DNA of 64,000 nt from Bacteroidales bacterium (lineage in GTDB: Bacteria > Bacteroidota > Bacteroidia > Bacteroidales > UBA932): the NCBI GenBank assembly GCA_017447265.1, contig JAFSOA010000015.1, positions 124,001-188,000 on the forward strand, in the 5' to 3' direction. How positions within the stretch are numbered: the stretch's first letter is position 1; each line of letters starts with the position of its first letter. A program made the position numbers and the translations under genes. Below, one piece after another: positions 8,602 to 58,734 of the stretch. The notes under the pieces were generated by a model, which worked only from the letters and a program-made list of their open reading frames with translations, was not told the DNA's origin and did not search any database.

Positions 8602-11600
8602 TTATACCTCGAAGAACCGGAAGGAGTCAAGGACCTCGAATATCATGTCCACATAGGAACTCGAAGTCTCATCCCAACGGAAGCCGAGCCTGTGCAACAC
8701 GTTCATCGTGTAGGTGTTGTCCGCCTGGTTCTCTACCATCGGCGTCTGTCCTTCAGCCTGGTTATAGGCGATGATGCTGGACAGGATCCGGGCCTTTTCG
8801 GGGTCGGTGCCCGCCTCCTCCATCCGGCGCGCAAACGCATCCACTTCCAGATGATCCAACGGACTTCCATCGTCTTTGTGCAGGCGGGACAACACGTCGT
8901 CCATCGGTAACAGGTGATTGTTGGAGACGTGGAAGACGCAGTTGGCCGCCGGGGTTCCTGCCAGCAACACCACAGCGCGCGCTGTCTCATCGATGGGAGA
9001 AAACTCCATCCGGCTCACCATCAGCGGGTAAGGGACGGCGCCCAGCATCCGGAACGCCTTCATGCGCCCCATCGAGGCATTGGAATTGAAATTAGCCTGG
9101 AATTCACCGTCCGCAGCACGCGGAGACAAGTTTCCCACGCGGACGATCTTCGCATTCAGCCGGCCTTCCGCCACCTTTTCCAGAATACAGCGTTCTGCCA
9201 GGAACTTGGACACGACATACTGGTTATCCGTATTCTGTCCGAAGAACAACATCTGTTCATCCATGATCTTCGGGACGAGGCCTTCGGCCATGCCGCCGAC
9301 ACTCTCGGTGGAAACCTGCATCAGCCGGGCACCGGAAGCCAGGCAGAAGTCCACCAGGTTCTGCACCCCGTAATAATTCACCTTGAGAATATCGTCCCCA
9401 CGAGAGAAGTGCTTGACATTGGCCGCACAGTTCACGACCATGTCGAACGAGGTCCCCGAAGCAAGAATCGAGTCGAAGACTTCCTTGCTGGTGATATCGC
9501 CCTGGATCAGGCGGATGCGTCCGCCCACCAGCTGGCGGTAATTCTTTTCGAAATAATACACCAGCATCTCCTTCAGACGCTGCTCGGCGGTGACGGAGCC
9601 CTTGCCCCGGAGGAGACACCAGATGACTGTATCTTCTCCCGTTTGCTCGATCAGCTCCCGCAGGACATGGATGCCCAGGAAGCCCGTGGCGCCCGTCAGC
9701 AGAATGTTCTTGCCCAGTTGCTGGGGCTTCCCTTCCAGGAAAGCGTCGAGGCTATTGCCCGCCAGCAGGGCGTCAATGGCAGAATAATCGTAGGCGGACA
9801 CATCGTCTTTCCTGTCGTCGAGTTTCGGGTTGCCGCCTTCCAGGGACGCGGCCAGGGCACGGGCTGTCGGGAAAACGAACACGTCGGCGTAGGAGAACTT
9901 CAGGCCGCGTTGTTCCGCGCTGACCAGCACGCTCGTGACCATGAGCGAGGTCCCGCCCAGATCGAAGAAACTGTCGGTGGCACCCACGCGGTCCATTCCC
10001 AACACTTCGGCGAAAATTTCGCACAGGGCGGTCTCAATTTTCCCCTCGGGCGGCACATAATCCCCGTCGGAAGTCATCTCGGGAGCCGGAAGGGCCTTGC
10101 GGTCCACCTTCTGATTCACATTCAACGGAATCTTGTCGAGCTTCGCAAAAGCAGCCGGGACCATGTAGGGCGGTTTCCGCTGCAGGATAAAATCGGACAG
10201 CGCCTTCTTGTCCAGTTCCCCGTCACATACGACGTAGGCCGCAATGAACTTGCCGCCGGAAGGATTGTCGAAAGGCTGGACTGTGACATCGGTCACGCCC
10301 GGGAACTCCCGGATCACGGCTTCCACTTCCTTGGTCTCGACTCGGAAACCCCGGATCTTCACCTGGCCGTCGTTGCGGCCCACAAATTCGATGTTGCCGT
10401 CCATCCGGTAACGGACGATGTCGCCGGTCCGATACACGCGGTCATACGGATACGCCCCGGCGAACGGATTGGGGATAAATGTTTCAGCGGTCTTTTCCGG
10501 CCGGTTGAGGTACCCGCGGCTGACCTGGGGTCCGGAAACCCAGAGCTCGCCCACCGCGCCGGCGGGAAGCCGACGGCCCAGGCTGTCCACCACGTAGAGC
10601 CGGAAGTTGGACAGCGGATGGCCGATGGGGATGTTGGGTTCCTTCTTCTTCACTTCGAAGATCGTGGTGAAAATGGTGCACTCCGTCGGACCGTATCCGT
10701 TATGGAAGTGATAGGAAGGCGGATCCATCGAAATGAGTTTCTCGCCGCCCACCGACAGATGCTTCAAGGAAGGATTCCCGGGATAGTTCTTGGCGAACAT
10801 GACGCCCACCTGGGTCGTCATGAAACTGTGGGTGACTTTGTTGTCGGTGATGAGACTGCTCAGCAGGGACATGTCGTGACGGGTTTCTTCCGGGACGATG
10901 CATACGCTGGCACCGGCCGTGAGGGCGGGATACATGTCCATCATGCAGGCATCGAAGCCATAGCTGGCGTACGCCGCGACACGGCTCTTTTCCGTAAGCT
11001 GGAAGTAGTCACGGTACCAGGCACAGAAATACGCGAGATTGCGGTGTTCCAGCATACAGCCCTTCGGAACGCCAGTGGAACCCGACGTATACAGGAGAAT
11101 GAACAGGTCTTCCGGCGCAGGGCCCTTGGGAACGGAGCCTGCCGGCAACGAAGCAATGTCGGCCGTGTCCAGGACAGGGCCTTGATAGGAAGTGATCAGC
11201 TGCCGGTACTGCGCATCGAAAATGAGCAGGCTCGCAGCAGCGTCTTCGACCATGAAGTTCAGGCGTTCTTCCGGATAGGAAGGATCCAGGGGCTGATAGG
11301 CGCAGCCCGCTTTCAAGGCGCCGAGGGAGGCGACGGCCATCAACTCATTGCGGCCGATCAGGATGGAGACAACCTGTTCGCGCCCGAGTCCCAGCGAGGC
11401 GATATATGATGCAATCCGGTCGGAAATATCGTCCAACTCCTTATACGTCAATATCTTCGACTCAAAGAGCACAGCCGGCGCATCCGGGTGGGCGGCCGCC
11501 TGTGCGCGGAAGAGGGAAACGATGGTCTGCTTGTCGTCCACAGGAAGCGTATAGGCATTGAAACCGTCCAGCATCTTTTCCTGGGATTTCCCCACCAGCG

Positions 11601-14600
11601 CGAGTTTTCCGAGGGGCCCGTCGGAAAGCATTCCGTGCAGCAGCTGTGTCAGCGTATCGGCAAAGCTCCGCATCAGCTCCGGGCTGTAAAGCGTCTCGTC
11701 GTACTGGATCAGAATGTGCTCGGCCGCCTCGCCGCCGTTGACAAAGAGACTTACGGGGAACATCGGGGTCTGGGTCGCCAGATCCTCGTAGGAGATTTCC
11801 TTCCCGCCGATCCGGTAGGATTCCAGCAGGCCGACCTGGTAGGCCATCATCACCTGCGGCTGGAAACCGTAGTCGGAAGACACCTTGGCAAAAGGATAAT
11901 ATTCATGTGAACGGGACTCGGCGAACACGCGGTCCGTTTCCCGCAAATAGTCATCCACTTTGTCAGCCCCGGTATCGGCGGACAGCGCGAGCGTATTGAC
12001 GAACATACCGATGGTATCGGATACCCGCAGGTCGGAGCGGCCGTTGCTCACGGTGCACATATAGACGTTCCGGCTGCCGGAGAAGACACCGACGGCCAGG
12101 TAGGCCGCACCGAGGAAATAGCTGGCCGGAGAAATGCCCAGCTGCTGGCAGCGGGCGGAGATGGCCGCATCCACGGGCAGTTCCAGGGAGGCCACGACAC
12201 CGGATTCCTCACCCTTCTCCCGGTCGGGAAGAATGGCGCTGGCGCCTTCGCAGCCCGCCATCCGTTCCTGGAAGAAGGACGCCGCAGCGGTGAATTCCTC
12301 TCCGCCTTCCGAAGCCTTCTGGCCGGCGGCATAGTCAAAGTAGGTAAAATGCTCCGGAACAGGGTCCGTGCCGTCCATTGCCGCGCAGAACTCCGTCATG
12401 AAGATGTCCATCGAACGGCCGTCGAAGACCAGGTGATGGAAGTCAGTCAAGAGATACAGGCCCTTCCCCGCCGTGACGACGGTGGCCCGGAACAGCGGTC
12501 CCTCCGACAGGTTGAACGGCTCCAGGAAATGGGATTTGAAATCCGGGAGGTTCTCCGCCGGAAGGGTCGCCAGGCTCACCCCGGGTTCCTGCTCACAAGG
12601 GACCAGCATCACCTTGCCGTCCCGCATCTCGAAGCGGGAATTCAGTGCAGGGTGACATTTCACCACCTTCAGGAAGGCGCTGCGGACAGCTTCGGGATCG
12701 AGGGAAGCCGGAAGGGTCCAGCAGAGCGGCAGGTTGTACACCGTCTCGCTGGGATTCTTCATGCACTCGAAGTAGAGACCTTCCTGCTGGAAAGTCAGGG
12801 GCTGCGCCGACACCGTGCCCCGGGAAGTACCCGGCTGCAGCGGGGCCTGTCCGGAGAACATGGCGGAAAGCACCTCGTTCTCAATACCCTGGAGCGTCGC
12901 CGTCTTGACAAAGGATTTCATATCCACCGTGATGCCGAAGCGCTTGTTCAATTCGACCGCGAGCCGGAGTGCCGCAAGGGAGGTAAGGCCCGAATAGATG
13001 AGCGGCTCCGTCAACGAGAAGCCGTCGATATGGGTCGTCTCACGGATCAGGTCGGCGAGTTTCTGCTCCAACAGGTTGAAGGGCGCATCCGCCGCCGGCT
13101 TGTCCTTCTTGCGCGCCTCAGGCTTCGGCAGGGCTTTGCGATCCACCTTCTGGTTTACATTCAAGGGAATGGTATCGATCTGCATGGTCACCGACGGCAC
13201 CATGTAAGGCGGTTTCCGGTCCAGGATAAAAGTATTCAGGGCGTCAATGTCCACCGGGGCGTCGCCGACGACATAGGCCGCCAGGAACTTGCCACCCCCC
13301 TCACCCTCTTCGTCGAAGGCCTGGACGGTGACATCCGTGATGCCTGGGAATTCCCGGATAACGCTTTCCACCTCCTTGAGTTCGATGCGGAAACCGCGGA
13401 TTTTCACCTGCATGTCCTTGCGGCCGATGAACTCGATATCGCCGTCGGCCCGGTAGCGGACGACATCGCCGGTCCGGTACATGTGCCTGTAGGCAGGGTC
13501 GTCGGTGAAAGGGTTATCAATGAACACCTCGGCGGTCTTGTCGGGCCGCCCCAGGTAGCCCATGCCCACCTGCCAGCCCGAAATCACCAGTTCTCCGGCG
13601 GCGCCAACAGGCAGGCGCCCGCCGCTCTTGCCCAGGATATAGGCATTGACACCCGGCAAGGGACGGCCGATGGGGATATCCGGTTCCTGCACGGTCACAT
13701 GCTTGCTGACCACATAGACCGTGGTCTCCGTGGGACCGTAGCAGTTGAACAACGCATATTCGGGCGGTGCCAGACTGACCATTTTCTCACCGCCGGTGTA
13801 CATGGCTTTCAGGGACTTGTTTTCCGGGAAATTGATGGCGAACTGCGTGGCAACCTGCGTCGTCATCAGGGTGTGGGTGATGCCGTTTTCCTCGAAGAAA
13901 TCATTCAGGGCAAGCAGATCCAGGCGAATTTCCTCGGGAATGACATAGAGGGCCGCTCCCGCCATAAGGGCCGTTGCATAATCGCTCATGAAGGCATCGA
14001 AACCGAAGCTGGCGTACACGGCCATACGGGAGGTTTCCGTGACGCCGAGATTGGCCTGGTTGTTCCGCCCGTAGACAGAAATGTTCCGGTGGATCAGCTG
14101 GACGCCCTTGGGAACGCCGGTCGTTCCACTGGTATACAGCAGGATGAAGCGGTCATCCGGCTTCGGTGCCGGAACCTTTGCCTTTCCTTCGGGAAGGGAA
14201 GCGATGTCACGGGTCAGGAAGACTTTCCCTTCATAACCGGCAACCAGTTCTTCCAGTCCGGGATCCGCAATGAGCAGGGAGGCGCCGGCGTCCTGCACCA
14301 TGAAAGACAGGCGTTCGGCCGGATAGGAAGGGTCCAGCGGCTCATACGCACAAGCAGCCTTGATGGCGGCCAGGGGTGCAACGACCATATACTGGTTCCG
14401 GTTCAGGATGATGGCGACCACACCGCCGGGTTTTACGACAGAAGCGATATATGCGGCCAGCTTGTCAGTCAGCCGGTCGAGCTGGGCATAGGTGAGCGTC
14501 GTGTTCTGATACACCACGGCCGGATGGTCCGGGAAATTTTTCACGTTTTCCCGGAAAGCGTCCAGGAAGGTCAGGTTGATGTCGCCGGAGAAGGGTTCCG

Positions 14601-15294
14601 GGTTGAAGGAATCCGTTTCCTTCAGCTGCGCGTCTGTTATAAAGGCGAGCTCTCCCACCGTTTCCGCTTTCCCCATCGACAGGAGACAAGCGGAGAAACT
14701 GTCCATGAACTGCCGGAGTATCTGTTCAGAATACTGATCGGCCCGATAGCGGCATTCCATCTGGAAAGAGCCGTTCTTGCCTGCCGTCATGCGGAACGCC
14801 AGCGCATCGTCGCCGATGGCGGCTTCCGGATCTTCCGGTCCGTCGAAAAAGGTTGAAACACCCGGTTCCATCTCGCGGACGCAGTCCGCATAAGAATAGC
14901 CTTGGCCGCGGTGAACGAGTTCCTGCTGTTGCTGCCGTTTGGCCAGCAATTCCTTCAAAGGCATCTCCGGCGTCCATTCCACCAGCACCGGCCACTGGCC
15001 ACCGCCGGTCGGGAAAAAGGCCCTCGTATCGGCGTTCCAGACCGAAACGGTGACACCGAACGCGCTGGTCAGCAGTACATCGGCCGGGCAGCCGAAACGT
15101 TTCCGGAGGGTTTCCAGGTCTTTCGGCCCGGCCAGCAGAGGAAAGGCCACTTTTTTCATGGCGGGCTTCCCGCCCTCACGGATATCGGGAATCAGCCGCG
15201 TCTCCAATCCGGCACAGGCGGAAAACTGTTCGACAAACAGAGATGGCGTTTCTTTCTTGGTGGCCTCTTCAGGCGATTCACACTGCTTTTTCAT
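8602..15294 (-). CDS. Two-module non-ribosomal peptide synthetase with terminal reductase domain, first C domain truncated
   Basis: A 2230-residue assembly-line enzyme with order (C-lobe only)-A-PCP-C-A-PCP-R. Residues 35-230 resemble only the second half of a condensation domain; the catalytic HHxxxDG half is missing. A1 has LLYTSGTTGVPKG near 385 and NCYGPTE near 516; PCP1 attachment Ser is S772 in the unusual GLTSL. C2 has intact HHLVFDG from H953. A2 has LLYTSGSTGVPKG near 1400 and NGYGPTE near 1531; PCP2 Ser is S1783 in GGTSL. The R domain starts with GATGFLG near 1865 and has the Y2026/K2030 catalytic pair. Established for this class: reductive release of an aldehyde with NAD(P)H. Inferred: a dipeptide aldehyde with free N-terminus. 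It needs a PPTase, not present here. Its sister lies at 51463-58734. Confidence 0.95.
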   Translation of the reverse strand: MKKQCESPEEATKKETPSLFVEQFSACAGLETRLIPDIREGGKPAMKKVAFPLLAGPKDLETLRKRFGCPADVLLTSAFGVTVSVWNADTRAFFPTGGGQWPVLVEWTPEMPLKELLAKRQQQQELVHRGQGYSYADCVREMEPGVSTFFDGPEDPEAAIGDDALAFRMTAGKNGSFQMECRYRADQYSEQILRQFMDSFSACLLSMGKAETVGELAFITDAQLKETDSFNPEPFSGDINLTFLDAFRENVKNFPDHPAVVYQNTTLTYAQLDRLTDKLAAYIASVVKPGGVVAIILNRNQYMVVAPLAAIKAACAYEPLDPSYPAERLSFMVQDAGASLLIADPGLEELVAGYEGKVFLTRDIASLPEGKAKVPAPKPDDRFILLYTSGTTGVPKGVQLIHRNISVYGRNNQANLGVTETSRMAVYASFGFDAFMSDYATALMAGAALYVIPEEIRLDLLALNDFFEENGITHTLMTTQVATQFAINFPENKSLKAMYTGGEKMVSLAPPEYALFNCYGPTETTVYVVSKHVTVQEPDIPIGRPLPGVNAYILGKSGGRLPVGAAGELVISGWQVGMGYLGRPDKTAEVFIDNPFTDDPAYRHMYRTGDVVRYRADGDIEFIGRKDMQVKIRGFRIELKEVESVIREFPGITDVTVQAFDEEGEGGGKFLAAYVVGDAPVDIDALNTFILDRKPPYMVPSVTMQIDTIPLNVNQKVDRKALPKPEARKKDKPAADAPFNLLEQKLADLIRETTHIDGFSLTEPLIYSGLTSLAALRLAVELNKRFGITVDMKSFVKTATLQGIENEVLSAMFSGQAPLQPGTSRGTVSAQPLTFQQEGLYFECMKNPSETVYNLPLCWTLPASLDPEAVRSAFLKVVKCHPALNSRFEMRDGKVMLVPCEQEPGVSLATLPAENLPDFKSHFLEPFNLSEGPLFRATVVTAGKGLYLLTDFHHLVFDGRSMDIFMTEFCAAMDGTDPVPEHFTYFDYAAGQKASEGGEEFTAAASFFQERMAGCEGASAILPDREKGEESGVVASLELPVDAAISARCQQLGISPASYFLGAAYLAVGVFSGSRNVYMCTVSNGRSDLRVSDTIGMFVNTLALSADTGADKVDDYLRETDRVFAESRSHEYYPFAKVSSDYGFQPQVMMAYQVGLLESYRIGGKEISYEDLATQTPMFPVSLFVNGGEAAEHILIQYDETLYSPELMRSFADTLTQLLHGMLSDGPLGKLALVGKSQEKMLDGFNAYTLPVDDKQTIVSLFRAQAAAHPDAPAVLFESKILTYKELDDISDRIASYIASLGLGREQVVSILIGRNELMAVASLGALKAGCAYQPLDPSYPEERLNFMVEDAAASLLIFDAQYRQLITSYQGPVLDTADIASLPAGSVPKGPAPEDLFILLYTSGSTGVPKGCMLEHRNLAYFCAWYRDYFQLTEKSRVAAYASYGFDACMMDMYPALTAGASVCIVPEETRHDMSLLSSLITDNKVTHSFMTTQVGVMFAKNYPGNPSLKHLSVGGEKLISMDPPSYHFHNGYGPTECTIFTTIFEVKKKEPNIPIGHPLSNFRLYVVDSLGRRLPAGAVGELWVSGPQVSRGYLNRPEKTAETFIPNPFAGAYPYDRVYRTGDIVRYRMDGNIEFVGRNDGQVKIRGFRVETKEVEAVIREFPGVTDVTVQPFDNPSGGKFIAAYVVCDGELDKKALSDFILQRKPPYMVPAAFAKLDKIPLNVNQKVDRKALPAPEMTSDGDYVPPEGKIETALCEIFAEVLGMDRVGATDSFFDLGGTSLMVTSVLVSAEQRGLKFSYADVFVFPTARALAASLEGGNPKLDDRKDDVSAYDYSAIDALLAGNSLDAFLEGKPQQLGKNILLTGATGFLGIHVLRELIEQTGEDTVIWCLLRGKGSVTAEQRLKEMLVYYFEKNYRQLVGGRIRLIQGDITSKEVFDSILASGTSFDMVVNCAANVKHFSRGDDILKVNYYGVQNLVDFCLASGARLMQVSTESVGGMAEGLVPKIMDEQMLFFGQNTDNQYVVSKFLAERCILEKVAEGRLNAKIVRVGNLSPRAADGEFQANFNSNASMGRMKAFRMLGAVPYPLMVSRMEFSPIDETARAVVLLAGTPAANCVFHVSNNHLLPMDDVLSRLHKDDGSPLDHLEVDAFARRMEEAGTDPEKARILSSIIAYNQAEGQTPMVENQADNTYTMNVLHRLGFRWDETSSSYVDMIFEVLDSFRFFEV

Positions 15295-15316
15295 AGAATC
15301 CAGAAAATAATATCCC

Positions 15317-15324
15317 CAAATTTA
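15317..15324 (-). promoter_or_regulatory. -7 promoter box for the NRPS at 8602-15294
   Basis: TAAATTTG on the minus strand, 22 bases before the ATG. No convincing upstream element is visible in the AT-rich stretch behind it. It separates NRPS expression from the ABC-F gene upstream. Confidence 0.55.
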
Positions 15325-17300: not shown

Positions 17301-17307
17301 GGCAGGG

Positions 17308-17315: not shown

Positions 17316-17330
17316 GGAAAAAAGGACGGA

Positions 17331-27500: not shown

Positions 27501-27554
27501 CAGATCGACTGCCTGATCGGCGAAATCGCCCGCTTCTTCCGCAAAGAACGCTAG
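24516..27554 (+). CDS. Large secreted N-acetylmuramoyl-L-alanine amidase-like protein with golvesin-like and Fn3 regions
   Basis: A 1012-residue exported protein (signal peptide about residues 1-23, ending APAQA). Family resemblance is to Bacteroidota proteins often annotated as xanthan lyase or amidase. Residues 270-390 form a golvesin C-terminal-like beta domain (IPADGEYGVYVSYQ... GSTWIYLGRFGF). The amidase_3-like catalytic parts appear split: a segment near 160-230, then SFAFHTDAG (near residue 470, zinc His) and MLLELLSHQN (near 560, catalytic Glu). A fibronectin type III-like domain lies about 610-700. The last 300 residues are unassigned. Expected to act on cell-wall glycopeptide; substrate unproven. 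Ends in a convergent 4-base overlap with the BACON lipoprotein gene. Confidence 0.8.
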   Translation: MKRIFPLLLTVLWLAASAAPAQAARDKDLQPMADSLTNYLKEKTTVRSFVQVEKATILNDGTLRLTLSRGLVDFPLREQEIKDIYAIARATLPKKYAKYKKKLSLYADKKPVEYYKSRYFTGQRDRGAVEEHRQYAGRFHDQLAAPLLTRCSSPNQPTRGLQKRHIALWQSHGWYYEQSLARWEWQRARIFETVEDLYTQSYVVPFLVPMLENAGAVVLLPRERDWNVHEVIVDNDLDAKGYHETGHWQAAPDTGFAHNRSVYLYKENPFKMGTARMTTTDAKGSKSIRWIPDIPADGEYGVYVSYQTVPGSTTAAQYEVRHKGGVTRYSVNQQMGGSTWIYLGRFGFSRGSHEQQGVFLSNQGDGRSIVTADAVRFGGGMGNMAREPLETQEGAFDFEPEISGYPRFTEGSRYWLQWAGFNDTIYSRNAGTTDYNDDYMSRGLWVNTMSDGSYLKPDRKGYNVPFDLSFAFHTDAGTYLNDSIVGTLAIYTRLSNDEEKYPNGEDRSIGRDYTDIVQTQIVEDIRALYEPIWNRRQLWDRSYAESRMPEVPGMLLELLSHQNLADMRYGLDPGFRFTVSRAIYKGMLKFLAYVNDFDYTVQPLPVEGFEAHFNPEGSVSLSWTPVDDPLEPTASPTAYILYTRLDDGGFDNGRPLGETHVELDIEPGHIYSFRVTATNAGGESFPSETLSIGLVSEQAPTVMIVNNFDRVSAPVSFASGDSLYAGFMNRLDSGVPYVYDISFIGNQHEYRRHIPWMDDDSAGFGASDSDYETKVIAGNTFDYPYVHGMAWMNAGYNFVSASRSAVEHRRIALNDYPVADIICGKQITTQIGREGASALRYHVFPQGLREQIADLTRAGGSVLVSGAYVGSDLWEPVFRFPVDSTLQADYFTPAQQFAAEVLHYKWMTNSAAVTGQVRGEQNPCGITRNSRYYFNQQLGERVYCVESPDGLTPVGPGACTIYRYAENNISAGVAYQGDYKTVVLGFPVETLETQEQIDCLIGEIARFFRKER

Positions 27555-49708: not shown

Positions 49709-50008
49709 TCACCGTAAGAAGCTGGCCGAAAGGCCTGTCATGTCAAATACCTCCTGGACCGTGTCGGTCACTTTCGTGATCGAGAAAGAGCCGCCATTCC
49801 TCGTGACAGCCTGCTGGAAGGCCACGAGGATGCGCAGGGCCTTGGAAGACATATACTCCAGTTTCGAAAGGTCCATTTCGACTTTCGTATCCTTGCGCTC
49901 CATCAAAGGCTCGATGTCACGCTGGAACTGTGCGCTCGTGTCCGTATCCAGTTCACCCTGGACAGATACGACCACTACCCCGTTTTTTTCTTCGATGATC
50001 GTTTTCAT
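49709..50008 (-). CDS. STAS-domain anti-anti-sigma-type protein
   Basis: A 99-residue single STAS domain of the SpoIIAA/RsbV kind. The phosphorylatable Ser lies in LEYMSSKALRILVAFQ (near residues 54-55). It would be dephosphorylated by the PP2C phosphatase gene directly upstream, whose stop overlaps its start by 4 bases (ATGA). The matching anti-sigma kinase is not in the window. Confidence 0.92.
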   Translation of the reverse strand: MKTIIEEKNGVVVVSVQGELDTDTSAQFQRDIEPLMERKDTKVEMDLSKLEYMSSKALRILVAFQQAVTRNGGSFSITKVTDTVQEVFDMTGLSASFLR

Positions 50009-51309
50009 ACTATTTTGATATAAATAATTGCAATATCGTCATTCTGCAAGGCGTTGCCGCGGAAGGCTGCCAGCGTATCCAGCAGGGATTGGCAGGCCTC
50101 CTCGCTGGAGATGGCGGGATCCAGCCCGTTCATCCATTCCTGCAGCCGCTTCTCCCCGAAGAAGGAGCGGTCCGCGCCGCGCGCCTCGGTCACGCCGTCC
50201 GTGTACAGCAGCAAACGGTCTCCATGATGCAACTGCACGGTCTGCGTATGATAGGGATAATCCCGGTCCAGGCCGGCGAGCAGCTGCGAATCCTGGTCAA
50301 GGAAGTCCCCGTTGACCATCGTCCGCGTATGCCCGGCATTGCAATATTCCATTTTCAGCGTTTCAGGATCGATGTGTCCCAGGAACAGCGTACAGAGCAT
50401 CTCGTACTCCGAATTGTCACAGATCAGGTAGTTCAGTTCTTTCATCAGTTCACAGACAGGAACCTCGCCGCGGGTACGGGAATGAATAAAGGAACTGATC
50501 GTAAACATCAGCAGCGCGGCTGTCGTGCCCTTGTCCGATACATCGCCGATTACGTACTGGAACTTGCCGTCCTGCATCCCGAAACGATAGATGTCGCCGC
50601 CCACCTCGCGGGCCGGCCGGAGCACGGCATGCGAATCGAAAAAGGAATTCTTGGGAAAGACCGTCGTCACCGCTTTCTGCTGCAGGTCGCGTGCCTCGTT
50701 GAGCTCGTTTTCAGCCAGGCGCTTGCGTTCGAGGACACGTTCCACGACAGGAATGATCCAGAACCACGAGACAGCCAGCAGCAGCAGGAAAAGGAGGACC
50801 AGCACCATGATAAAGTCTTTCGCGGTCTCCTCGCGATCACTGAAAATATAATCATAGTCGTAGACGCCGATCAATTCCAGGGGACGTGTCGGGAAGGGAT
50901 GGATGATGATGAAGCAGCGGTCGCCCCAGACGTCCGCCAGCCAGCAGGTACCCGTTTTGTCAAGTTGCTTGACCTTCTTCATCTTCAAGGTACGCCCCGC
51001 GGCAAAAGAAGGCGCGATGACTTCACCTTCCTTGTCCCTCACCACATAGGAATACTCTCTCTCTTCGTGCTGCACGCTTGAAACCAGTTCCAGGTAGGCG
51101 AAGCAGTCCTTGTCCCCCTGGTCCATACGCAACTCGAGATAGGGAGCAATGGTCTTCAGATCGTCCTCCAGATCTTCGTAATTCAAGTTGTAAGATTGTT
51201 CCAGCGAGACATGCAGCACCCACAGGGTAACACCCGTCGTCAACAAGCCATAAAGGGCCAGCAACAAGATAATCAGCAGGCGTGGAGATTCAGATATCCG
51301 CTTTTTCAT
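50005..51309 (-). CDS. Membrane-bound PP2C (SpoIIE/RsbU-type) serine phosphatase
   Basis: A 434-residue signalling phosphatase. Transmembrane helices at about 11-31 and 165-187 flank an extracytoplasmic sensor of about 130 residues; a short coiled coil (RVLERKRLAENELNEARDLQQKAV) links to the PP2C domain, with metal-binding Asp motifs REVGGDIYRFG, VIGDVSDKGTTAALLM, LLLYTDGVTEAR and QNDDIAIIYI. With the STAS protein it makes a partner-switching pair controlling a sigma or other regulator. It is divergent from the NRPS gene at 51463, sharing a 153-base control region. Confidence 0.94.
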   Translation of the reverse strand: MKKRISESPRLLIILLLALYGLLTTGVTLWVLHVSLEQSYNLNYEDLEDDLKTIAPYLELRMDQGDKDCFAYLELVSSVQHEEREYSYVVRDKEGEVIAPSFAAGRTLKMKKVKQLDKTGTCWLADVWGDRCFIIIHPFPTRPLELIGVYDYDYIFSDREETAKDFIMVLVLLFLLLLAVSWFWIIPVVERVLERKRLAENELNEARDLQQKAVTTVFPKNSFFDSHAVLRPAREVGGDIYRFGMQDGKFQYVIGDVSDKGTTAALLMFTISSFIHSRTRGEVPVCELMKELNYLICDNSEYEMLCTLFLGHIDPETLKMEYCNAGHTRTMVNGDFLDQDSQLLAGLDRDYPYHTQTVQLHHGDRLLLYTDGVTEARGADRSFFGEKRLQEWMNGLDPAISSEEACQSLLDTLAAFRGNALQNDDIAIIYIKIV

Positions 51310-51318
51310 TTCCGAAAT

Positions 51319-51335
51319 TTACGAATTAATCGTAA
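51319..51335. promoter_or_regulatory. Palindrome in the phosphatase/NRPS intergenic region
   Basis: TTACGA-ATTAA-TCGTAA, a perfect 6-bp inverted repeat, overlaps a near-match -7 box for the phosphatase gene (TAAATTTC, minus, 51314-51321). It is a possible operator. The NRPS box lies about 100 bases away. Confidence 0.35.
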
Positions 51336-51433
51336 TCCGAGCAAATTTTTTTTATATACATCCGTTGGCCTGATTCCGTTTCATATGCTCATAAATATTG
51401 GGCAATCCGCGACAAGCACAAGTCTTTTTTTGT

Positions 51434-51441
51434 TATATTTG
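51434..51441 (+). promoter_or_regulatory. -7 promoter box for the NRPS at 51463-58734
   Basis: TATATTTG, 21 bases before the ATG; almost the same spacing (22) as at the sister NRPS gene. Confidence 0.55.
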
Positions 51442-51462
51442 AAAGTTAAAATCCTCAGGAGT

Positions 51463-54400
51463 ATGAGTTATCCCCTATCCCAATCTCAACTAAGCATCTT
51501 CCTGGCTTGCCAGGGGCTGAATGAGAACGACGGCAACTATCAGCAGGCATCGTTGTACCGCCTTCCCGACAGCGTTGACATCAAACGGCTCGCTGCAGCC
51601 CTCGAAGCTGTGATCCAGGCACATCCCTATGTCCTTTCCCGCATCGTTCAGGAAGAAGGAATGCCGCGGATAGAAGATCATTCTACCGACGAGTGGCATC
51701 CGCTCGTGAAGGAAATCACCTCCATTGACGAGGTTCGCCCGACTTTCTGCCGGACGATGAACCTCCTCAAGGATCCGCTGCTCCGCATCGAGATCTACAA
51801 AACCAAAAAAGGAAATTATCTCTATTGTGATTTACACCATATTATTTTCGACGGTGCCTCCACCCTCTTGCTGACAGACCACCTGACGCGTGCGTATGCG
51901 GGGGAAGAACTGCCTCCGGAGCCCCTCAACGGCTTTGACATTGCTGCCCGGGAAGAGGCGCAGCGACAGGGAGAGACCTACGAAGAAGCGAAAAAGTGGT
52001 ATGCCGGGACCTTCGGGGAAGGCGCCCAGCTCGACTCGAACATCCGGCCCGACGTGTACGACACCCAGCCGCGGCCCTATCGCGAACTGCTCATCGACCT
52101 GCCGGTCAAGGGTTCTGTCGTCAAGGCACTCCTGGCCAAATACCGCTGCGCCGACAGCGTGCTTTTCACAGCCGCCTTCGGCGTGACCCTCGCCGCCTGG
52201 AGCGCCGAGCCGAAAGCCGCTTTCAGCACCATCTGGAACGGCCGGAAAGGCCCTTCGATGAACGCCCTCACCATGAGCGTCCACACCATGCCCGTCCTGG
52301 TGAACGCAGACCCCTCCCAGACGGTGACCGGCCTGCTCGAAGAGCTCCGCCAGCAGATCAGCGGATCGCGCAGCCGCGCCTTCTACTCTTTCGCCGACTG
52401 CGTCCGTGATTTCGACTTCAATCCACCCATCAATTTCGGTTATCAGGGCAAATTCGCCGCCGCCACCGTGACCATCCGGCTGGAAGGAGTAGATATTCCC
52501 GCCGAAGACCTGCGTACCAACCCGCCGGGTCTCGGCCTTACGGTCGAACTCTTCGGACACGACGACGGCAGCCAGCTGCTCCGTTTCTGGCACCGGCCCG
52601 ACCAATACTCGGAAAAGATCCTCCGCCAGTTCGCAGAAAGCTTCTCCGCCGTGCTCATTTCCATGGAAAAGGCCGAAACGCTGGCTGACCTGCAATATGT
52701 TACGGCGAAACAGCGAAAACAGTTGGACCGTTTCCAGCCCGCTGAAGCGGCCATCGATACCGGGAAGACGGTCCTGGACTACTTCAGGGAATGTGCGTCC
52801 AGGACGCCCGAAAAAACAGCGGTGGTCTACGGCGACAAACGGCTCACCTACGCGGAGCTGGACCGGCTCTCCGACAACCTGGCCGCTGAAATCAACAAGA
52901 CCGTGAAGCCCGGCGGCGTGGTGTCGATCATCCTGGGGCGCAATGAGCACATGGTCACCACGCCCGTGGCAGCCATCAAGGCCGGCTGCACCTACCAGCC
53001 CCTCGACCCCACCTATCCCTCCGAACGCCTGGGCTATATGGTGCAGGACGCGAAAGCGGGCCTGCTGATCGCCGACCCGGGGCTTGAGCAACTCGTGGAA
53101 GGCTACAAGGGCCCCGTCCTCCTCACCGACAAGATAGCCGGACTGCCGAAAGGCAAGGGCAAGGGTGCGCCCAGGGCGGATGACTGCATCATCCTGCTCT
53201 ATACCAGCGGCACCACGGGAAAACCCAAGGGCTGCATGCTCTCCCACACAAACCTCCTGACCTTCTGCCTCCGGTCCAACAAGCAGTTTGAACTCGGGCC
53301 GGACTCCGCCATGACGGGCTATGCCAGTTTCGGCTTCGACGCCTTCATGGGCGATATGTGGCGGACCCTGTGCGCCGGCGCCACACTTCACATCATTCCC
53401 GAAGACATCCGGCTCGACCTGGTGGCCCTGAACGAATACTTTGAGAAGAACGGTGTCACCCACGCCTTCATGACCACCCAGGTGGCCACCCAGTTCGCCC
53501 TCACGTTCCCGCGCTGCAAGGGTCTCAAAGTCCTGTCAACCGGGGGCGAGAAGCTGGCCAGCATCACGCCCCCGGGCTTCAGGTTCTACAACTGCTACGG
53601 CCCGACCGAATGCTGCTGCTACGTGGTGAGCAAACTCGTTGAGAAAAAGGAAACCGACATCCCCATCGGACGTCCCTCGGAGGGCATACACGTCCATATC
53701 GCCACAAAGAGCGGGCAGCTGCTGCCGGCCGGCGCGGCTGGCGAACTGCTGGTCGCCGGACGGCAAGTGGGCATGGGCTACCTGGGCCTGCCTGACAAGA
53801 CCGGCGAGGTTTTCATTCCCAACCCCTATGAAAAGGAGGCTGCCTACAGCCGTATCTACCGTACAGGCGACATCGTGCGCTGGCGCGAGGACGGGGACAT
53901 CGAATTCATCGGCCGCAAGGACTCCCAGGTGAAGATCCGCGGCTTCCGCATCGAGCTCAAGGAAATTGAAACCGTAATCCTGGCGTATCCGGGCATCACC
54001 GACGTCACCGTGCAGGCCTTCGACGAAGAGGGCGGCGGGAAGTATCTGGCCGCCTATGTCGTGTCGGAACAGCCGGTCGACGTCGAAAAGCTGAACGCCT
54101 TCATCCTGGAGCAGAAACCGCCGTACATGGTGCCGGCCGTTACGATGCAGATCGACAAGATTCCGCTCAACGTCAACCAGAAGGTTGACCGCAAAGCCCT
54201 GCCCAAGCCCCAGCCGCTACAGCAGGAGCACAAAGCCGTCGACGCTCCTTTCAACATCCTCGAACAGGAGATCGCCGACCTGATCCGCGACACGGTCCAT
54301 ATCGAGGGCTTCTCGCTCACCGAACCGCTGCTCTACTACGGCCTGAGTTCCCTCTCCGCCCTGCGTCTGGCCACGGAGCTCTACAAGAAATACGGCGTCC

Positions 54401-57400
54401 AGATGAACATGGACTCCTTCGTCAAGACCGCGTCGCTGCAGACCATCGAGAATGAGGTGATCAAAGCGCTGATCGCGGGCCGCGGTGCGGCCGCACAGAG
54501 CGCGATGCAGCAGGCCGACACGCCGCAGCCGCTGACCTTCCAGCAGACCGGCGTCTATTTCGACTGCATGAAGGCCCCGCAGGAGACCATGTATAACATT
54601 CCCATGTTGTGGACCTTCCCCGGGGAAGTATCGGCCCAGGCCCTGAAGAAAGCCGTCGAAAAGGTGCTCGCCGCCCATCCTGCCCTGCAGTCTCACTTTG
54701 AGCAGAAAGACGGGCAGATCTGCCAGGTGCCTTCCGACGTGCCCATCCCGGTGAGCATCAACGAAACGGACATCCAGTCCCGCAGAGAGAATTTCATCCT
54801 TCCCTTCAACCTGGGCAAGGGCCCGCTGGGCAAGGTGGAAATCGTGCCCGGAAAGGACAAGACCTACCTGCTGAGCGACTTCCACCACCTGGTGTTCGAC
54901 GGCCGCAGCTACGACATCTTCATCGAGGAAGTCTGTGCTGCGCTGGAAGGCAGGGAAATCGCCCCTGAAAACTACAACTACTTCCAGTATGCCGCCTGGC
55001 AGAAGGAATCCGAAGGCAGCGAGGCCTTTGCCCAGGCCCAGGACTTCTTTGCCCGGCAGATGGGCGGGCTGGAAAGTCCTTCGACCGTCATTCCCGACCT
55101 CGAACACGGCGACCATCCCGGCCGCGAGGTATTCCTGAGAAAGTTTGTCGAAGCCGACATCCATCCGCGCTGCAAAGAACTGGGTATCTCGGCCGCCAGC
55201 TTCTACCTGGGCGCCGCTTACCTCACCCTCAGCGCCTACAACGCCAACAAGAAAGTATACATCTGCACCGTCAGCAACGGTCGCGGCAACCTGAAGACAG
55301 CCGACAGCTTCGGCATGTTCGTCAATACCCTGGCCCTCGCCGGGGACTGTTCCATCGAGCGCACCGGGGACTTCCTCAAACAGTGCGACCAGGACTTCCA
55401 GGCCACCTTGCAGCACCAGGACTACCCCTTCGCCAGGATTGCCGCCGATTTCGGCTTCCAGCCGCAGGTGATGCTGGCCTATCAGGTAGGCGTCCTGGCC
55501 GACTACCGCGTGAACGGACAGCCCGTCACTGGCGAGAACCTGGACGCCGGCGCGCCCAAGTTCCCGCTGAGCATCTATATCGACGGCAGCGAGGGCAAGG
55601 AGGCCATCGTGCTGGGCTACGACAGCAGCAAATACAGCGAAGCCCTCATGCAGGCCTTCGCCGACGCCATGGAATGCGTGGTAAGGGGGCTGCTGCAGCA
55701 TGAGAAGCTCTCCGAGGTGCCGTACGTGGACGGCGAACGCCTGAAAGAGCTGGATGGTTTCAACCACTACAGCCAGCAGGTGGATGCCACCCAGACCATC
55801 GTCAGCCTCTTCCGGGAGCAGGCCCGCAGGACACCCGACGCGCCCGCCGTGTGCTACGAAGACTATCGCTGCACCTATGCGGAGGCCGATGCCCTCACCG
55901 ACCGCATCGCCGCCGCCATTGCCGCCAGGGGCCTGAAGAACGAAGACGTGGTCTCGGTGCTCATCGGCCGCAGCCAATGGATGCCGCTGGCCTCGCTGGG
56001 TATCCTCAAGGCCGGCTGCGCCTACCAGCCGTTGGATCCGTCCTACCCGGAGGAGCGCCTCAACTTCATGGTGACCGACGCATCGGCCCGCCTGGTCATC
56101 GCAGAGAAGGAACTCCTGCCCGTGCTGAAAGACTACAAGGGACCCGTGCTTACCACCGATGAACTGGAGTCCCTGCCAGAAGGTCCGGTTCCGGAAGGTC
56201 CCAAACCGGAAAACCTCTTTATCCTGCTGTACACCTCCGGCTCCACGGGCGTGCCCAAGGGCGTGATGCTGGAGCACCACAACCTGGTGAACTTCTGTGC
56301 CTGGTACCGGAAGTACTTCGACCTGAACGAGCACAGCCGGGCATCGGCTTATGCCAGCTATGGCTTCGACTGCTGCCAGATGGACATGTATCCGACCCTC
56401 ACCACGGGCGCCTGCCTGTACATCATCCCCGAAGAGACCCGCCACGACATGAGCCTGCTGAACAGTTTCCTCGTCAACAACGGTATCACCCACAGCTTCA
56501 TGACCACCCAGGTGGGCGTGATGTACGCCAGGAACTACCCGGACAACCCGACCCTGCAGCACCTCACGGTGGCCGGCGAAAAGCTGGTTTCCATGGACCC
56601 GCCTTCCTACGGCTTCCACAACGGCTACGGCCCCACAGAATGCACCATCCTCTGCACCATCTTCGACGTGAAGAAACGGGAGGCCAACATCCCCATCGGC
56701 CATGCGCTGGACAACACATATATGTATGTGGTGGACAAAGACTTGCGCCGTGTGCCCGTGGGCGCGGACGGCGAGTTGCTCATTACCGGCGACGCCTGCG
56801 TGGGCCGCGGCTATCTGAACCGTCCCGAAAAAACGGCCGAGGTGTTCATTGAGAATCCCTTCCGGAAAGGCATGCGGGCCTATCGCAGCGGTGACATCGT
56901 CCGCTGGCGCACCGACGGCAACATCGAGTATGTGGGCCGCAACGACGGCCAGGTGAAAATCCGCGGCTTCCGCGTCGAGACCAAGGAGGTGGAGGCTGTC
57001 ATCCGGGAATTCCCCGGCGTGAAAGACGTGACCGTCCAGGCCTTCGACGCATCCTCCGGCGGCAAATTCATCGCCGCCTACGTGGTAAGCGAGGGCAATC
57101 TCGACACGAAAGCCCTGAGCGCATTCATCCTCGAGCGCAAGCCGCCCTACATGGTGCCCGCTTCCATCAACGCCATCGACAGCATCCCGCTCAATGTCAA
57201 CCAGAAAGTGGACCGAAAGGCGCTGCCCGCCCCCGTGCTTTCCGCTTCCGACGACTATGTGGAGCCGGCTACCGATACGGAGCGCACGCTCTGCGAGGTG
57301 TTTGCACACGTGCTCGATGTGGAGAAGGTGGGGGCGCTCGACAACTTCTTCGATATGGGCGGTTCCTCGCTCATGGTGACCAATGTCATGGTGGAAGCCG

Positions 57401-58734
57401 AGAAGCGCGGCCTCAAGTTCAGCTACGCCGAAGTCTTCATCTTCCCTACCGCGCGTGCCCTTGCCGCTCACATCACGGGAGAGAAGGTCCCCGACGCAGC
57501 GGGAGCTGAAGCCAGCGCTCCGGCGGAAGACGTGGCGCATTACGACTACACGGCCATCGACCAGCTGCTGGCCGCCAATACGCTGGAATCCCTCGCAGCC
57601 GGCAAGATGCAGAAGCTGGGCAGGAACATCCTGCTGACAGGCGCCACCGGCTTCCTTGGAATCCACCTGTTGCGGACACTCATCGACTGTACGCCCAAGA
57701 GCACGGTGATCTGGTGTCTGCTGCGCGGCAAGGGAGCGAACCTGACGGCCGAGCAGCGCCTTGCCGGGATGCTCATCTACTATTTTGAGCAGAAATACCG
57801 CAAGCTCATCGGCACGCGCATCCGGGTGATCGAGGGCGACATCACCAGGCCCGCCTCGTTCGAAGCCCTCCAGGCCACCGGTACCTCCTTCGACCTGGTC
57901 ATCAACTGCGCCGCCAACGTGAAGCATTTCTCCAAGGGCAACGACATCGAGGAGATCAACTACACCGGCGTGAAGAATCTCGTGGATTTCTGCGAGAAGG
58001 CCGGAGCCCGGTTCATCCAGGTCTCCACCGAGAGCATCTGCGGCATGACCGGGGACGGCCAGCCCAAATTGTTCACCGAACAGCAGCTCTGGATCGGCCA
58101 GAACACCGACAACCAGTATATCCACTCCAAGTTCCTGGCCGAACGCCATGTGCTGGAGCACGTGGCGGCAGGTACGCTGCGGGCCAAGATCATGCGCGCC
58201 GGCAACCTGTCTCCCCGTGCGGAAGACGGTGAGTTCCAGGCCAATTTCAATGCCAACACCACGATGGGACGCCTCAAGGCATACCGGATGCTGGGAGCCT
58301 TCCCGTATCCGCTGCTCGACATGAAGATGGAATTCTCCCCCATCGACGAGACGGCGCTCGCCATCGCGCTGTTGGCAACTACGCCTGACGCGAACTGCGT
58401 GTTCCACATATCGAACGACCACCTGCTGCCGATGGACGACATTCTCTCGCGCATCCACCGGAGCGACGGTTCACCGATTGCGTATGTGGAACTCCCCGAC
58501 TTCGCCGCCCGCATGGAAGCGGCCAAGGCAGACCCGGAGAAGGCCAAGGTGCTTTCGAGCATCATTGCCTACGCCAGCGCCCCCGACGGCCCCCATATGA
58601 TGCCCAACGTAGCGTCCACCGCCTACACGATGCAAGTGCTGCACCGGCTCGGCTTCCGCTGGAATGCCACGGCCAGCGACTACGTGGACATGATCTTCGA
58701 GATGCTGGCTTCCCTCAGATATTTTGACATTTGA
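51463..58734 (+). CDS. Two-module non-ribosomal peptide synthetase with terminal reductase domain
   Basis: A 2423-residue enzyme with order C-A-PCP-C-A-PCP-R. C1 has intact H125-H126-xxx-D130-G131; A1 has LLYTSGTTGKPKG near 578 and NCYGPTE near 709; PCP1 Ser sits in GLSSL near 960; C2 HHLVFDG begins at 1141; A2 has LLYTSGSTGVPKG near 1588 and NGYGPTE near 1719; PCP2 Ser is S1969 in GGSSL; R has GATGFLG near 2058 and catalytic Y2219/K2223. Known for this class: reductive release as an aldehyde. Inferred: an intact leading C domain points to an N-acylated dipeptide aldehyde. Clearly paralogous, module by module, to the NRPS at 8602-15294. ATG 51463 (MSYPLSQSQ) is chosen over the frame start at 51196, which lies inside the divergent gene. 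Confidence 0.96.
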   Translation: MSYPLSQSQLSIFLACQGLNENDGNYQQASLYRLPDSVDIKRLAAALEAVIQAHPYVLSRIVQEEGMPRIEDHSTDEWHPLVKEITSIDEVRPTFCRTMNLLKDPLLRIEIYKTKKGNYLYCDLHHIIFDGASTLLLTDHLTRAYAGEELPPEPLNGFDIAAREEAQRQGETYEEAKKWYAGTFGEGAQLDSNIRPDVYDTQPRPYRELLIDLPVKGSVVKALLAKYRCADSVLFTAAFGVTLAAWSAEPKAAFSTIWNGRKGPSMNALTMSVHTMPVLVNADPSQTVTGLLEELRQQISGSRSRAFYSFADCVRDFDFNPPINFGYQGKFAAATVTIRLEGVDIPAEDLRTNPPGLGLTVELFGHDDGSQLLRFWHRPDQYSEKILRQFAESFSAVLISMEKAETLADLQYVTAKQRKQLDRFQPAEAAIDTGKTVLDYFRECASRTPEKTAVVYGDKRLTYAELDRLSDNLAAEINKTVKPGGVVSIILGRNEHMVTTPVAAIKAGCTYQPLDPTYPSERLGYMVQDAKAGLLIADPGLEQLVEGYKGPVLLTDKIAGLPKGKGKGAPRADDCIILLYTSGTTGKPKGCMLSHTNLLTFCLRSNKQFELGPDSAMTGYASFGFDAFMGDMWRTLCAGATLHIIPEDIRLDLVALNEYFEKNGVTHAFMTTQVATQFALTFPRCKGLKVLSTGGEKLASITPPGFRFYNCYGPTECCCYVVSKLVEKKETDIPIGRPSEGIHVHIATKSGQLLPAGAAGELLVAGRQVGMGYLGLPDKTGEVFIPNPYEKEAAYSRIYRTGDIVRWREDGDIEFIGRKDSQVKIRGFRIELKEIETVILAYPGITDVTVQAFDEEGGGKYLAAYVVSEQPVDVEKLNAFILEQKPPYMVPAVTMQIDKIPLNVNQKVDRKALPKPQPLQQEHKAVDAPFNILEQEIADLIRDTVHIEGFSLTEPLLYYGLSSLSALRLATELYKKYGVQMNMDSFVKTASLQTIENEVIKALIAGRGAAAQSAMQQADTPQPLTFQQTGVYFDCMKAPQETMYNIPMLWTFPGEVSAQALKKAVEKVLAAHPALQSHFEQKDGQICQVPSDVPIPVSINETDIQSRRENFILPFNLGKGPLGKVEIVPGKDKTYLLSDFHHLVFDGRSYDIFIEEVCAALEGREIAPENYNYFQYAAWQKESEGSEAFAQAQDFFARQMGGLESPSTVIPDLEHGDHPGREVFLRKFVEADIHPRCKELGISAASFYLGAAYLTLSAYNANKKVYICTVSNGRGNLKTADSFGMFVNTLALAGDCSIERTGDFLKQCDQDFQATLQHQDYPFARIAADFGFQPQVMLAYQVGVLADYRVNGQPVTGENLDAGAPKFPLSIYIDGSEGKEAIVLGYDSSKYSEALMQAFADAMECVVRGLLQHEKLSEVPYVDGERLKELDGFNHYSQQVDATQTIVSLFREQARRTPDAPAVCYEDYRCTYAEADALTDRIAAAIAARGLKNEDVVSVLIGRSQWMPLASLGILKAGCAYQPLDPSYPEERLNFMVTDASARLVIAEKELLPVLKDYKGPVLTTDELESLPEGPVPEGPKPENLFILLYTSGSTGVPKGVMLEHHNLVNFCAWYRKYFDLNEHSRASAYASYGFDCCQMDMYPTLTTGACLYIIPEETRHDMSLLNSFLVNNGITHSFMTTQVGVMYARNYPDNPTLQHLTVAGEKLVSMDPPSYGFHNGYGPTECTILCTIFDVKKREANIPIGHALDNTYMYVVDKDLRRVPVGADGELLITGDACVGRGYLNRPEKTAEVFIENPFRKGMRAYRSGDIVRWRTDGNIEYVGRNDGQVKIRGFRVETKEVEAVIREFPGVKDVTVQAFDASSGGKFIAAYVVSEGNLDTKALSAFILERKPPYMVPASINAIDSIPLNVNQKVDRKALPAPVLSASDDYVEPATDTERTLCEVFAHVLDVEKVGALDNFFDMGGSSLMVTNVMVEAEKRGLKFSYAEVFIFPTARALAAHITGEKVPDAAGAEASAPAEDVAHYDYTAIDQLLAANTLESLAAGKMQKLGRNILLTGATGFLGIHLLRTLIDCTPKSTVIWCLLRGKGANLTAEQRLAGMLIYYFEQKYRKLIGTRIRVIEGDITRPASFEALQATGTSFDLVINCAANVKHFSKGNDIEEINYTGVKNLVDFCEKAGARFIQVSTESICGMTGDGQPKLFTEQQLWIGQNTDNQYIHSKFLAERHVLEHVAAGTLRAKIMRAGNLSPRAEDGEFQANFNANTTMGRLKAYRMLGAFPYPLLDMKMEFSPIDETALAIALLATTPDANCVFHISNDHLLPMDDILSRIHRSDGSPIAYVELPDFAARMEAAKADPEKAKVLSSIIAYASAPDGPHMMPNVASTAYTMQVLHRLGFRWNATASDYVDMIFEMLASLRYFDI

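Follow-up and report, generated by a model that had tools for sequence, protein, structure and literature searches.

Two genes for nonribosomal peptide synthetases (NRPSs) are found in a 64,000-nucleotide stretch of DNA from a Bacteroidales bacterium, hereafter called the window. NRPS A (8602..15294, reverse strand) encodes 2230 amino acids and NRPS B (51463..58734, forward strand) encodes 2423 amino acids, as judged from open reading frames, Pfam matches and alignment to each other. The open frame of NRPS B spans 51196-58734 on the forward strand, and its likeliest start is at 51463. Both proteins yield two AMP-binding matches, two PP-binding matches and one NAD_binding_4 (thioester reductase) match, and they are 57% identical across 2273 aligned columns. 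These results bear out the original prediction of two paralogous NRPSs, each with two adenylation (A) domains, two carrier (T) domains and a terminal reductase (R) domain. The shared wording it had quoted (IRLDL-ALN, GYLG-PDKT, RHDMSLL and GYLNRPEKTAE) can be seen by eye in both proteins. A gene for a membrane SpoIIE/PP2C-type serine phosphatase faces NRPS B across a divergent gap of 153 base pairs (bp) and is followed by a gene for a STAS-domain protein.

NRPS B has the domain order C-A-T-C-A-T-R, where C denotes condensation. Its first C domain (51475..52695, +), assigned by motif and by a tree of C domains, carries an intact HHIIFDG motif. It is followed by a first A domain (A1; 52765..54225, +) with the pocket code DAGFSGCCYK (Pfam and motif mapping), by a unit comprising C2 and the core of A2 (54562..56941, +) with the A2 code DCMFTAGILK, and by the terminal thioester reductase domain (57583..58731, +; Pfam and catalytic residues). 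In NRPS A, the corresponding elements are a C-lobe remnant of the first C domain (14581..15294, -), which lacks HHxxxDG and has further internal gaps, an A1 domain (13090..14571, -) with the code DASLYGCVYK, a C2 domain (11614..12804, -; Pfam and motif) with an intact HHLVFDG motif, an A2 domain (10090..11547, -) with the code DAMFSGGIFK found in most relatives, and the terminal R domain (8605..9732, -; Pfam, solved-structure matches and catalytic residues). Both A domains of NRPS A were assigned by Pfam and motif mapping. Thus, the C-A-T-C-A-T-R order proposed for both genes stands for NRPS B and fails for NRPS A, whose first C domain has no catalytic half. There is one Pfam condensation match and one HHxxxDG motif in NRPS A against two of each in NRPS B, and the alignment of A on B begins only at B residue 256. 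A module-for-module match between the two proteins is therefore not upheld, particularly as module 2 of NRPS B belongs with another clade. The A1 codes of the two proteins differ at four of 10 positions, as do the A2 codes. Code positions were mapped by motif according to the GrsA numbering. Among 29 aligned proteins, all keep the Thr, Tyr and Lys residues of the R domain, both T-domain serines and the C2 histidine. Seven catalytic or motif positions were checked, and all are invariant in 29/29 except for the first residue of the glycine-rich loop (27/29).

The source genome (G000) is a 2.13-Mb draft that is 79% complete, and it has one PF01648 match over the Pfam cut-off, indicating a phosphopantetheinyl transferase. 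Three other genomes (G016, G035 and G037, of which G035 is from red deer) and a set of loci designated by L-numbers were used for comparison. There are matches to NRPS A above 1000 bits in 17 of 40 genomes of the same genus and matches to NRPS B at E <= 1e-100 in 33 of 249 genomes drawn from the family. Genes near-identical to that of NRPS B are found in metagenome-assembled genomes of uncultured Bacteroidales. Several of the 29 loci scanned bear the labels rumen, omasum, reticulum, red deer or reindeer, and because of these labels we consider the source bacterium probably to be of rumen origin.

The phosphatase gene (50005..51309, -) encodes 434 amino acids, and the gene for the STAS-domain protein (49709..50008, -), which is of the anti-sigma-antagonist type and comprises 99 amino acids, overlaps it by 4 bp. 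The divergent gap also contains a -7 type element, TATATTTG (51434..51441, +), located 21 bp before the start codon of NRPS B. The phosphatase, identified by Pfam and a structural model, consists of a transmembrane segment, a small periplasmic domain, a second transmembrane segment and the phosphatase domain. In its model, two long helices flank a small mixed-strand domain and are followed by a PP2C fold, for which the RssB, SiaA and RsbU-type phosphatases (3f79, 6k4e and 3ke6) are the best structural matches. From the order of these elements in the model, the periplasmic domain is a putative Cache-like sensor. The metal-binding motifs GGD, GDVSDKG, TDG and NDD are invariant in 8/8 aligned phosphatases. 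Likewise, the phospho-acceptor serine is present in the STAS protein of the window and in 34/34 STAS rows found across 74 loci. In relatives, kinase-type HATPase domains are fused within long phosphatases or encoded adjacently.

To assess gene association, these 74 loci, among them the window, were scanned with home-made profiles for STAS, SpoIIE, HATPase and MATE. An NRPS gene with two readable flanks was counted as linked if it has STAS or SpoIIE at a distance of at most 3 kb. By this measure, the switch is linked in 14 of 16 cases in the genus and its close rumen relatives (the absences being NRPS A of the window and L032), in four of eight in other genera of the family, in none of four in genus g21, and in six of 13 in Lachnospiraceae. 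A further 6, 2, 0 and 4 genes in the four groups have the switch despite a cut flank, whereas 11, 1, 5 and 4 genes with a cut flank and no match are not tellable. If all genes with a match are counted, cut flank or not, the values become 20/22, 6/10, 0/4 and 10/17. We prefer the stricter counts because genes with a cut flank enter this second tally only when they have a match. Two loci carrying further copies of A (L094 and L095) were left out, and neither shows a STAS or SpoIIE gene (L095 is cut). Short loci that duplicate others from the same genomes were also left out, as was L031, which is too short. There are four SpoIIE and three STAS matches in the 2.13 Mb of the source genome, such that about 0.01 of each would be expected near a random gene. 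The linkage in Lachnospiraceae is less striking because these genomes are richer in SpoIIE, with 6 to 13 matches per genome in the four searched.

The arrangement of the switch varies among relatives. Clade I, which comprises L012, L007 and L038, has the short phosphatase and STAS genes in divergent orientation. A Cache-SpoIIE-HATPase protein of about 700 amino acids, together with STAS, is encoded divergently in L010, L015, L016 and L024, and downstream in L101 and L170. In L156, a STAS gene directly precedes the NRPS gene. In L016, the two kinds of switch adjoin each other back to back, and each faces an NRPS gene of its own. There are also two apparent NRPS-STAS-SpoIIE operons in Lachnospiraceae. 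In L026, 2 bp separate the NRPS and STAS genes, and in L027 the genes overlap by 4 bp and the phosphatase gene is cut by the contig end. The next gene in L026 (21276-22754) encodes a GGDEF-EAL protein and follows the NRPS, STAS and SpoIIE genes with a 4-bp overlap.

In Lachnospiraceae, a MATE exporter is a commoner NRPS neighbour than the switch. Of the NRPS genes in this family whose two flanks can be read, 12 of 13 have a MATE gene at most 3 kb away, as do 15 of all 21. At 12 loci, a HATPase stretch is found in the same protein as MATE. Pfam searches of five such fusions gave MatE and HATPase_c_2 above cut-off for four, and HATPase_c_2 fell below cut-off for the fifth (L131). The same pairing in one open frame occurs in L156 and L157 of Bacteroidota. 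There is no MATE-ATPase gene beside B-type NRPS genes in the loci scanned. On another contig, the source genome encodes one MATE protein that includes a weak HATPase stretch.

Several observations weigh against a switch that serves the synthetases. The association is lacking in g21 and at seven of 13 genes in Lachnospiraceae, and there is no STAS or SpoIIE neighbour at NRPS A or at its orthologue in G037. Many of the linked loci are close relatives, and so the counts are not independent. In addition, the home-made profile finds no gene for a HATPase_c_2-type kinase in the window, and the one good match in the source genome is on another contig (C3). The source genome also has a second partner-switch set (L150, at G000:C3:153000-162500), in which four consecutive genes (2959-7450) encode a 439-amino-acid HATPase-domain protein, a substrate-binding-like protein (by eye), a HAMP-like SpoIIE phosphatase and a STAS protein. 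The front half of the HATPase-domain protein looks like a lipid kinase by its motif. The kinase acting on the NRPS-linked STAS protein may come from this set.

The strongest competing explanation is that the STAS-SpoIIE pair simply hitch-hikes with the NRPS genes and regulates something else, surface polysaccharide or a sigma factor being examples. In its favour, these genomes also carry SpoIIE and STAS genes at other places, and the switch is absent at 2/16, 4/8, 4/4 and 7/13 NRPS genes in the four groups. However, the linkage recurs in divergent, upstream, downstream and apparent operon arrangements, the last with 4-bp overlaps, and it does so in two phyla. Moreover, MATE-ATPase fusions reside beside linked loci, and the accessible text on an archaeal rumen NRPS describes a similar gene set (PMC2812497). 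We consider hitch-hiking unlikely, and favour a role for the pair in controlling peptide production or export.

The shortened front of NRPS A does not appear to be an artefact. A frameshift or a contig end was considered as its cause and rejected, since the upstream region holds another gene, 95 bp away from the start of NRPS A, and a promoter-like element. This element, TAAATTTG (15317..15324, -), resembles the Bacteroidota -7 consensus and precedes the start codon by 22 bp, which suggests that translation really begins at the short start. No C1 sequence was seen by eye in three frames over about 400 bp upstream. Orthologues of NRPS A in G037 (96% identity) and G016 (91%; cut by the contig end) are the only others among the 40 genus genomes. 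The short form without the catalytic C1 half is found in all three genomes, in G016 as far as the contig reaches. The remnant is only 31% identical to C1 of NRPS B and shows gaps relative to intact C domains. Nevertheless, its ratio of nonsynonymous to synonymous substitution rates (dN/dS) is 0.18-0.20 against G037 and 0.16-0.18 against G016, compared with 0.09-0.10 and about 0.05 for A1. The remnant is thus under purifying selection, with weaker constraint than A1. A structural model of residues 1-730 of NRPS A, built with a 17-row alignment, has a mean predicted local distance difference test (pLDDT) value of 78.7. Values exceed 75 at residues 31-130 and 171-240, are lower at the N-terminus and at 131-170, and are poor at 1-30 and 131-160.

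One possibility is that NRPS A is a decaying gene that has yielded no product since half of C1 was lost. Its remnant is diverged and gapped, and evolves faster than A1, C2, A2 and R. NRPS A was also not found in a search of G035, in which the flanking genes of its place are rearranged, and the G016 copy has a TAG at codon 4 with a Met at codon 7. The T1 domain has a dN/dS of 0.42 against G037, based on few changes, and this value, too, speaks for decay; it is 0.08 against G016. In contrast, the frame of about 2230 amino acids is unbroken in G000 and G037, the catalytic residues are kept, and dN/dS is 0.03-0.12 for A1, C2, A2 and R. Elements like TAAATTTG are also seen by eye before the copies of A in G037 and G016. 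Decay is therefore improbable, and we treat NRPS A as a synthetase that does without the catalytic half of C1.

There are also C1-less relatives of NRPS A (L010a, L016, L024, L103 and L104). A single loss of C1 shared with them was rejected by approximately unbiased (AU) tests for the C1A1T1 (p 0.0017) and C2-A2core (p 0.026) segments, and it was not rejected for A2sub-T2-R (p 0.074). Because two of three segments reject one loss, two separate losses are likely, but not certain. In L010 (3950-17242), a C1-less and a C1-bearing synthetase are encoded in tandem, only a few bases apart. This arrangement resembles the pair with and without a starter C domain in the window, and probably arose separately. 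In L103 and L104, from two genomes of another genus, the C1-less synthetase gene adjoins leuC- and leuD-like genes (by eye), a hint that a leucine-pathway product might feed this synthetase.

The best sequence matches of the reductase domains among solved structures are 6vtj, a PCP-R didomain from Methanobrevibacter ruminantium (PMC8097023, in its available part), and the AusA reductase of Staphylococcus aureus. Together with the invariant Thr, Tyr and Lys residues, these matches agree with the reductive-release assembly line that had been proposed. The outcome of an R domain is not certain from sequence alone, and perhaps no aldehyde accumulates because these domains reduce by four electrons, giving an amino alcohol, or release the product in a Dieckmann-type reaction. 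However, the catalytic Tyr and Lys are present in 29/29 proteins, and the related AusA reductase yields an amino aldehyde according to the accessible portion of one report (PMC12153313). There is accordingly little reason to expect an alcohol or a Dieckmann product, and we retain aldehyde release as the working model.

The first C domain of NRPS B is, as a best guess, of the N-acylating starter type, because it groups with first C domains that, in L026 and L027, reside behind an extra A-T unit. When 47 C domains were placed in a tree, C1 of NRPS B and its close relatives grouped with the first C domains of L026 and L027 of Lachnospiraceae with a Shimodaira-Hasegawa-like approximate likelihood ratio (SH-aLRT) support of 92 on a short branch. 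The same group holds the first C domains of L137, L139, L157 and L166, and lies apart from second C domains. The L026 enzyme has a third AMP-binding and a third PP-binding domain, and its residues 3-521 match an A domain, so that the extra A-T unit precedes its first C domain. By analogy, this unit is placed as a fatty-acid-loading module would be. Two results count against an acylating C1. The first C domains of L128, L130, L131, L134, L138, L155 and L158 fall outside the group, and C1 gives weak matches to solved structures, the best of which is PvdL.

NRPS B is a mosaic in which C2 and the A2 core come from another clade, and its own A2sub-T2-R segment is kept. The relevant comparison is between clade I and clade II, the latter comprising L010b, L011b, L015 and L017b. 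In windows of 100 residues over most of C2 (residues 1145-1545), NRPS B is 43-63% identical to clade I, whereas identity to clade II reaches 68-93%. For most of the sequence outside module 2, NRPS B is nearer to clade I, at 55-96% identity. In AU tests conducted without the distant L081, L084 and L102, forcing NRPS B with clade I in C2-A2core is worse by 202 log units (p 4.6e-42). Forcing it with clade II costs 98 log units (p 1.7e-4) for the C1A1T1 segment and 77 (p 3.2e-7) for A2sub-T2-R. A two-breakpoint scan of 502 informative sites places the ends between residues 1122/1141 and 1906/1916. There are 158 clade-II-like and 17 clade-I-like sites inside these breakpoints, and 43 and 284, respectively, outside. 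The downstream breakpoint is located at GRNDGQVKIRG, the A8 hinge.

The exchange coincides with an altered pocket code. In module 2, the code DAMFSGGIFK is found in 21 of 24 Bacteroidales rows (from NRPS A of the window to L101), and the rest are NRPS B and two near copies. Even L107 and L101, which are only about 45% identical to NRPS B, carry DAMFSGGIFK, and other A2 codes occur in the distant rows (L081, L084, L102 and Lachnospiraceae). Among partial sequences, DCMFTAGILK is found in L021 and L018, and DAMFSGGIFK in L019, L020, L029, L032 and L047. Because L018 has DCMFTAGILK on a clade II backbone, clade II is the likely donor of C2 and the A2 core. With a foreign C2 and A2 core and a changed code, the second residue of the NRPS B product probably differs from that of the NRPS A product.

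Trees placing the two genes in unrelated clades had been named as evidence against the original prediction. The whole genes are not unrelated, although the C2-A2core segment of NRPS B does group with another clade. The view originally put forward, that a C-A-T-C-A-T-R enzyme was simply duplicated as a whole gene and that two nearly identical dipeptide aldehydes result, would fit the 57% full-length identity, the same domain order from A1 onwards and the shared wording, but it is very improbable given the loss of the catalytic C1 half from A, the four differences in each pair of pocket codes and the mosaic nature of B.

The locus of NRPS B seems to have moved recently between lineages, because a tract of high identity to G035 is embedded in surroundings of lower identity. 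The window is 75-94% identical to G035 up to 47 kb and 87% over the next kb, followed by a tract of about 20 kb holding NRPS B (48 to 68 kb) with 96-100% identity, and by 87-96% thereafter. Identity to G037 is 92-99.5% where aligned. It is possible that the tract shared by the window and G035 reflects a chimeric assembly.

Two related small molecules had been anticipated, and two that are related but different are the best reading of the predicted products. Since NRPS A has no working first C domain and NRPS B is recombinant, a difference in N-acylation is expected between the products, and their second residues probably differ as well. Both genes have two A-T modules and a terminal reductase, and only NRPS B has an intact N-terminal C domain, for which reason NRPS A is not filed among the gut C-A-T-C-A-T-R synthetases. 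From A1 onward, it should nonetheless work as they do. With the catalytic half of the starter C domain lost, NRPS A would load its first amino acid with a free amine, and C2 would join the second. The reductase would then free an H2N-aa1-aa2-aldehyde, which on the best reading of the domain content cyclises to a dihydropyrazinone and could be oxidised to a pyrazinone. NRPS B would first N-acylate its first amino acid, and the best candidate product is an acyl-dipeptide aldehyde that would be unable to cyclise and should inhibit proteases, as peptide aldehydes from gut anaerobes are reported to do.

In this scheme of two diverged synthetases, the membrane phosphatase might sense something periplasmic and dephosphorylate the adjoining STAS protein. 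The dephosphorylated protein would change partner, and thereby control production or export. We favour this overall model of two related dipeptide aldehydes, a free-amine one from A and an N-acylated one from B, under partner-switch control, with moderate confidence. A wider proposal is that dipeptide-aldehyde NRPSs of anaerobes in the gut and rumen, ranging from Bacteroidota to Lachnospiraceae and, by an older report, to a methanogen, travel with a dedicated switch whose STAS protein acts directly on an exporter with a fused anti-sigma-type ATPase domain, or on the synthetase, with no sigma factor involved. On this proposal, a phosphorylation switch would gate the release of a protease inhibitor. 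This is tentative, and we think it rather doubtful.

Several known systems invite comparison. AusA, which makes the aureusimines of S. aureus and has the domain order A-T-C-A-T-R, has a related R domain, and NRPS A should work in the same way, with a free amine, reduction to an aldehyde and cyclisation. NRPS A has no catalytic C1 and yet keeps a conserved C-lobe remnant before A1, and it belongs to a different phylum. The dipeptide-aldehyde or pyrazinone NRPSs of the gut, among which a review includes the ruminopeptin system of Ruminococcus bromii (PMC12327764), share the expected product class and, in the case of NRPS B, the C-A-T-C-A-T-R order originally cited for gut bacteria. The window differs in its Bacteroidales host, in having an NRPS A without a working C1 and in the switch beside NRPS B.

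A closer precedent is mru0068 of the rumen archaeon M. ruminantium M1. As described in the accessible sections of its genome report of 2010, this two-module C-A-T-C-A-T NRPS is encoded amid two serine phosphatases, an anti-sigma antagonist and a MatE exporter, which were read as sensing, regulation and export (PMC2812497). Its terminal domain is called a thioesterase in the text and a thioester reductase in a figure legend of that report. Thus, the idea of an NRPS-linked switch is already in print for one archaeon. The common ground is the rumen, similar neighbours and, for the R domain of the window, a best solved match from M. ruminantium. The differences are that mru0068 is archaeal and from one genome, and that the sections seen mention neither a truncated paralogue nor a MATE-ATPase fusion. 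In the literature searched, covering titles and the openings of abstracts with subscription papers thinly represented, there is no paper stating the NRPS-switch link as a general feature.

Switching of the RsbU/RsbV/RsbW and SiaA types, so far as the available text describes it (PMC8256260), has in common with the window a PP2C phosphatase and a STAS serine. In contrast, the pair described here is NRPS-linked, has no adjoining kinase gene, and is accompanied in relatives by an exporter with a kinase-type domain. Natural NRPS recombination is reported, in the accessible part of one study, to consist mostly of A-core exchanges, with C-A exchange being exceptional (PMC8097286). NRPS B shares with those cases a downstream boundary at the Acore/Asub hinge and a native Asub-T interface, but the exchange moved the C domain along.

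We view these synthetases as a known enzyme kind with predicted chemistry and three unforeseen traits, namely a synthetase with a selected half C domain, a clean exchange of C2 and Acore, and a signalling partner in two phyla. No report of this enzyme kind in such a host was met in the literature searched. The recurrent signalling pair offers a handle on what turns on peptide-aldehyde production, in two phyla and, by the older report, in a rumen methanogen. For NRPS engineering, the locus presents two natural experiments. One is a working-looking synthetase that lacks half of its starter C domain, and the other is a C2 and Acore exchange with boundaries at a domain edge and the A8 hinge and with an altered pocket code.

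Other features of the window and its genome deserve brief mention. A gene for a thioredoxin-like protein (58731..59261, +) overlaps the stop codon of NRPS B by 4 bp, and was rejected as a fixed partner since a relative is found at only five of 31 loci examined. A C10 (streptopain-type) cysteine protease with an I69 inhibitor-type domain is encoded at 28124-29917 (-), 13-21 kb from the NRPS genes and beside a gene for a BACON-domain protein (27551-28117). It is possibly the bacterium's own target of a cysteine-protease inhibitor. As a fixed NRPS partner it was likewise rejected, being found at one of 31 loci, which is the region of G035 syntenic with the window; the corresponding region of G037 also aligns there. 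Elsewhere in the source genome, locus L105 (G000:C3:42000-50000) encodes a stand-alone enzyme of 812 amino acids (3007-5445) with the look of an adenylation-carrier-thioesterase protein (by eye), adjoining a gene for a TonB-dependent receptor-like protein. Finally, TANNTTTG occurs 26 times in the window, compared with 11 occurrences expected by shuffling, and this excess fits a Bacteroidota promoter element.

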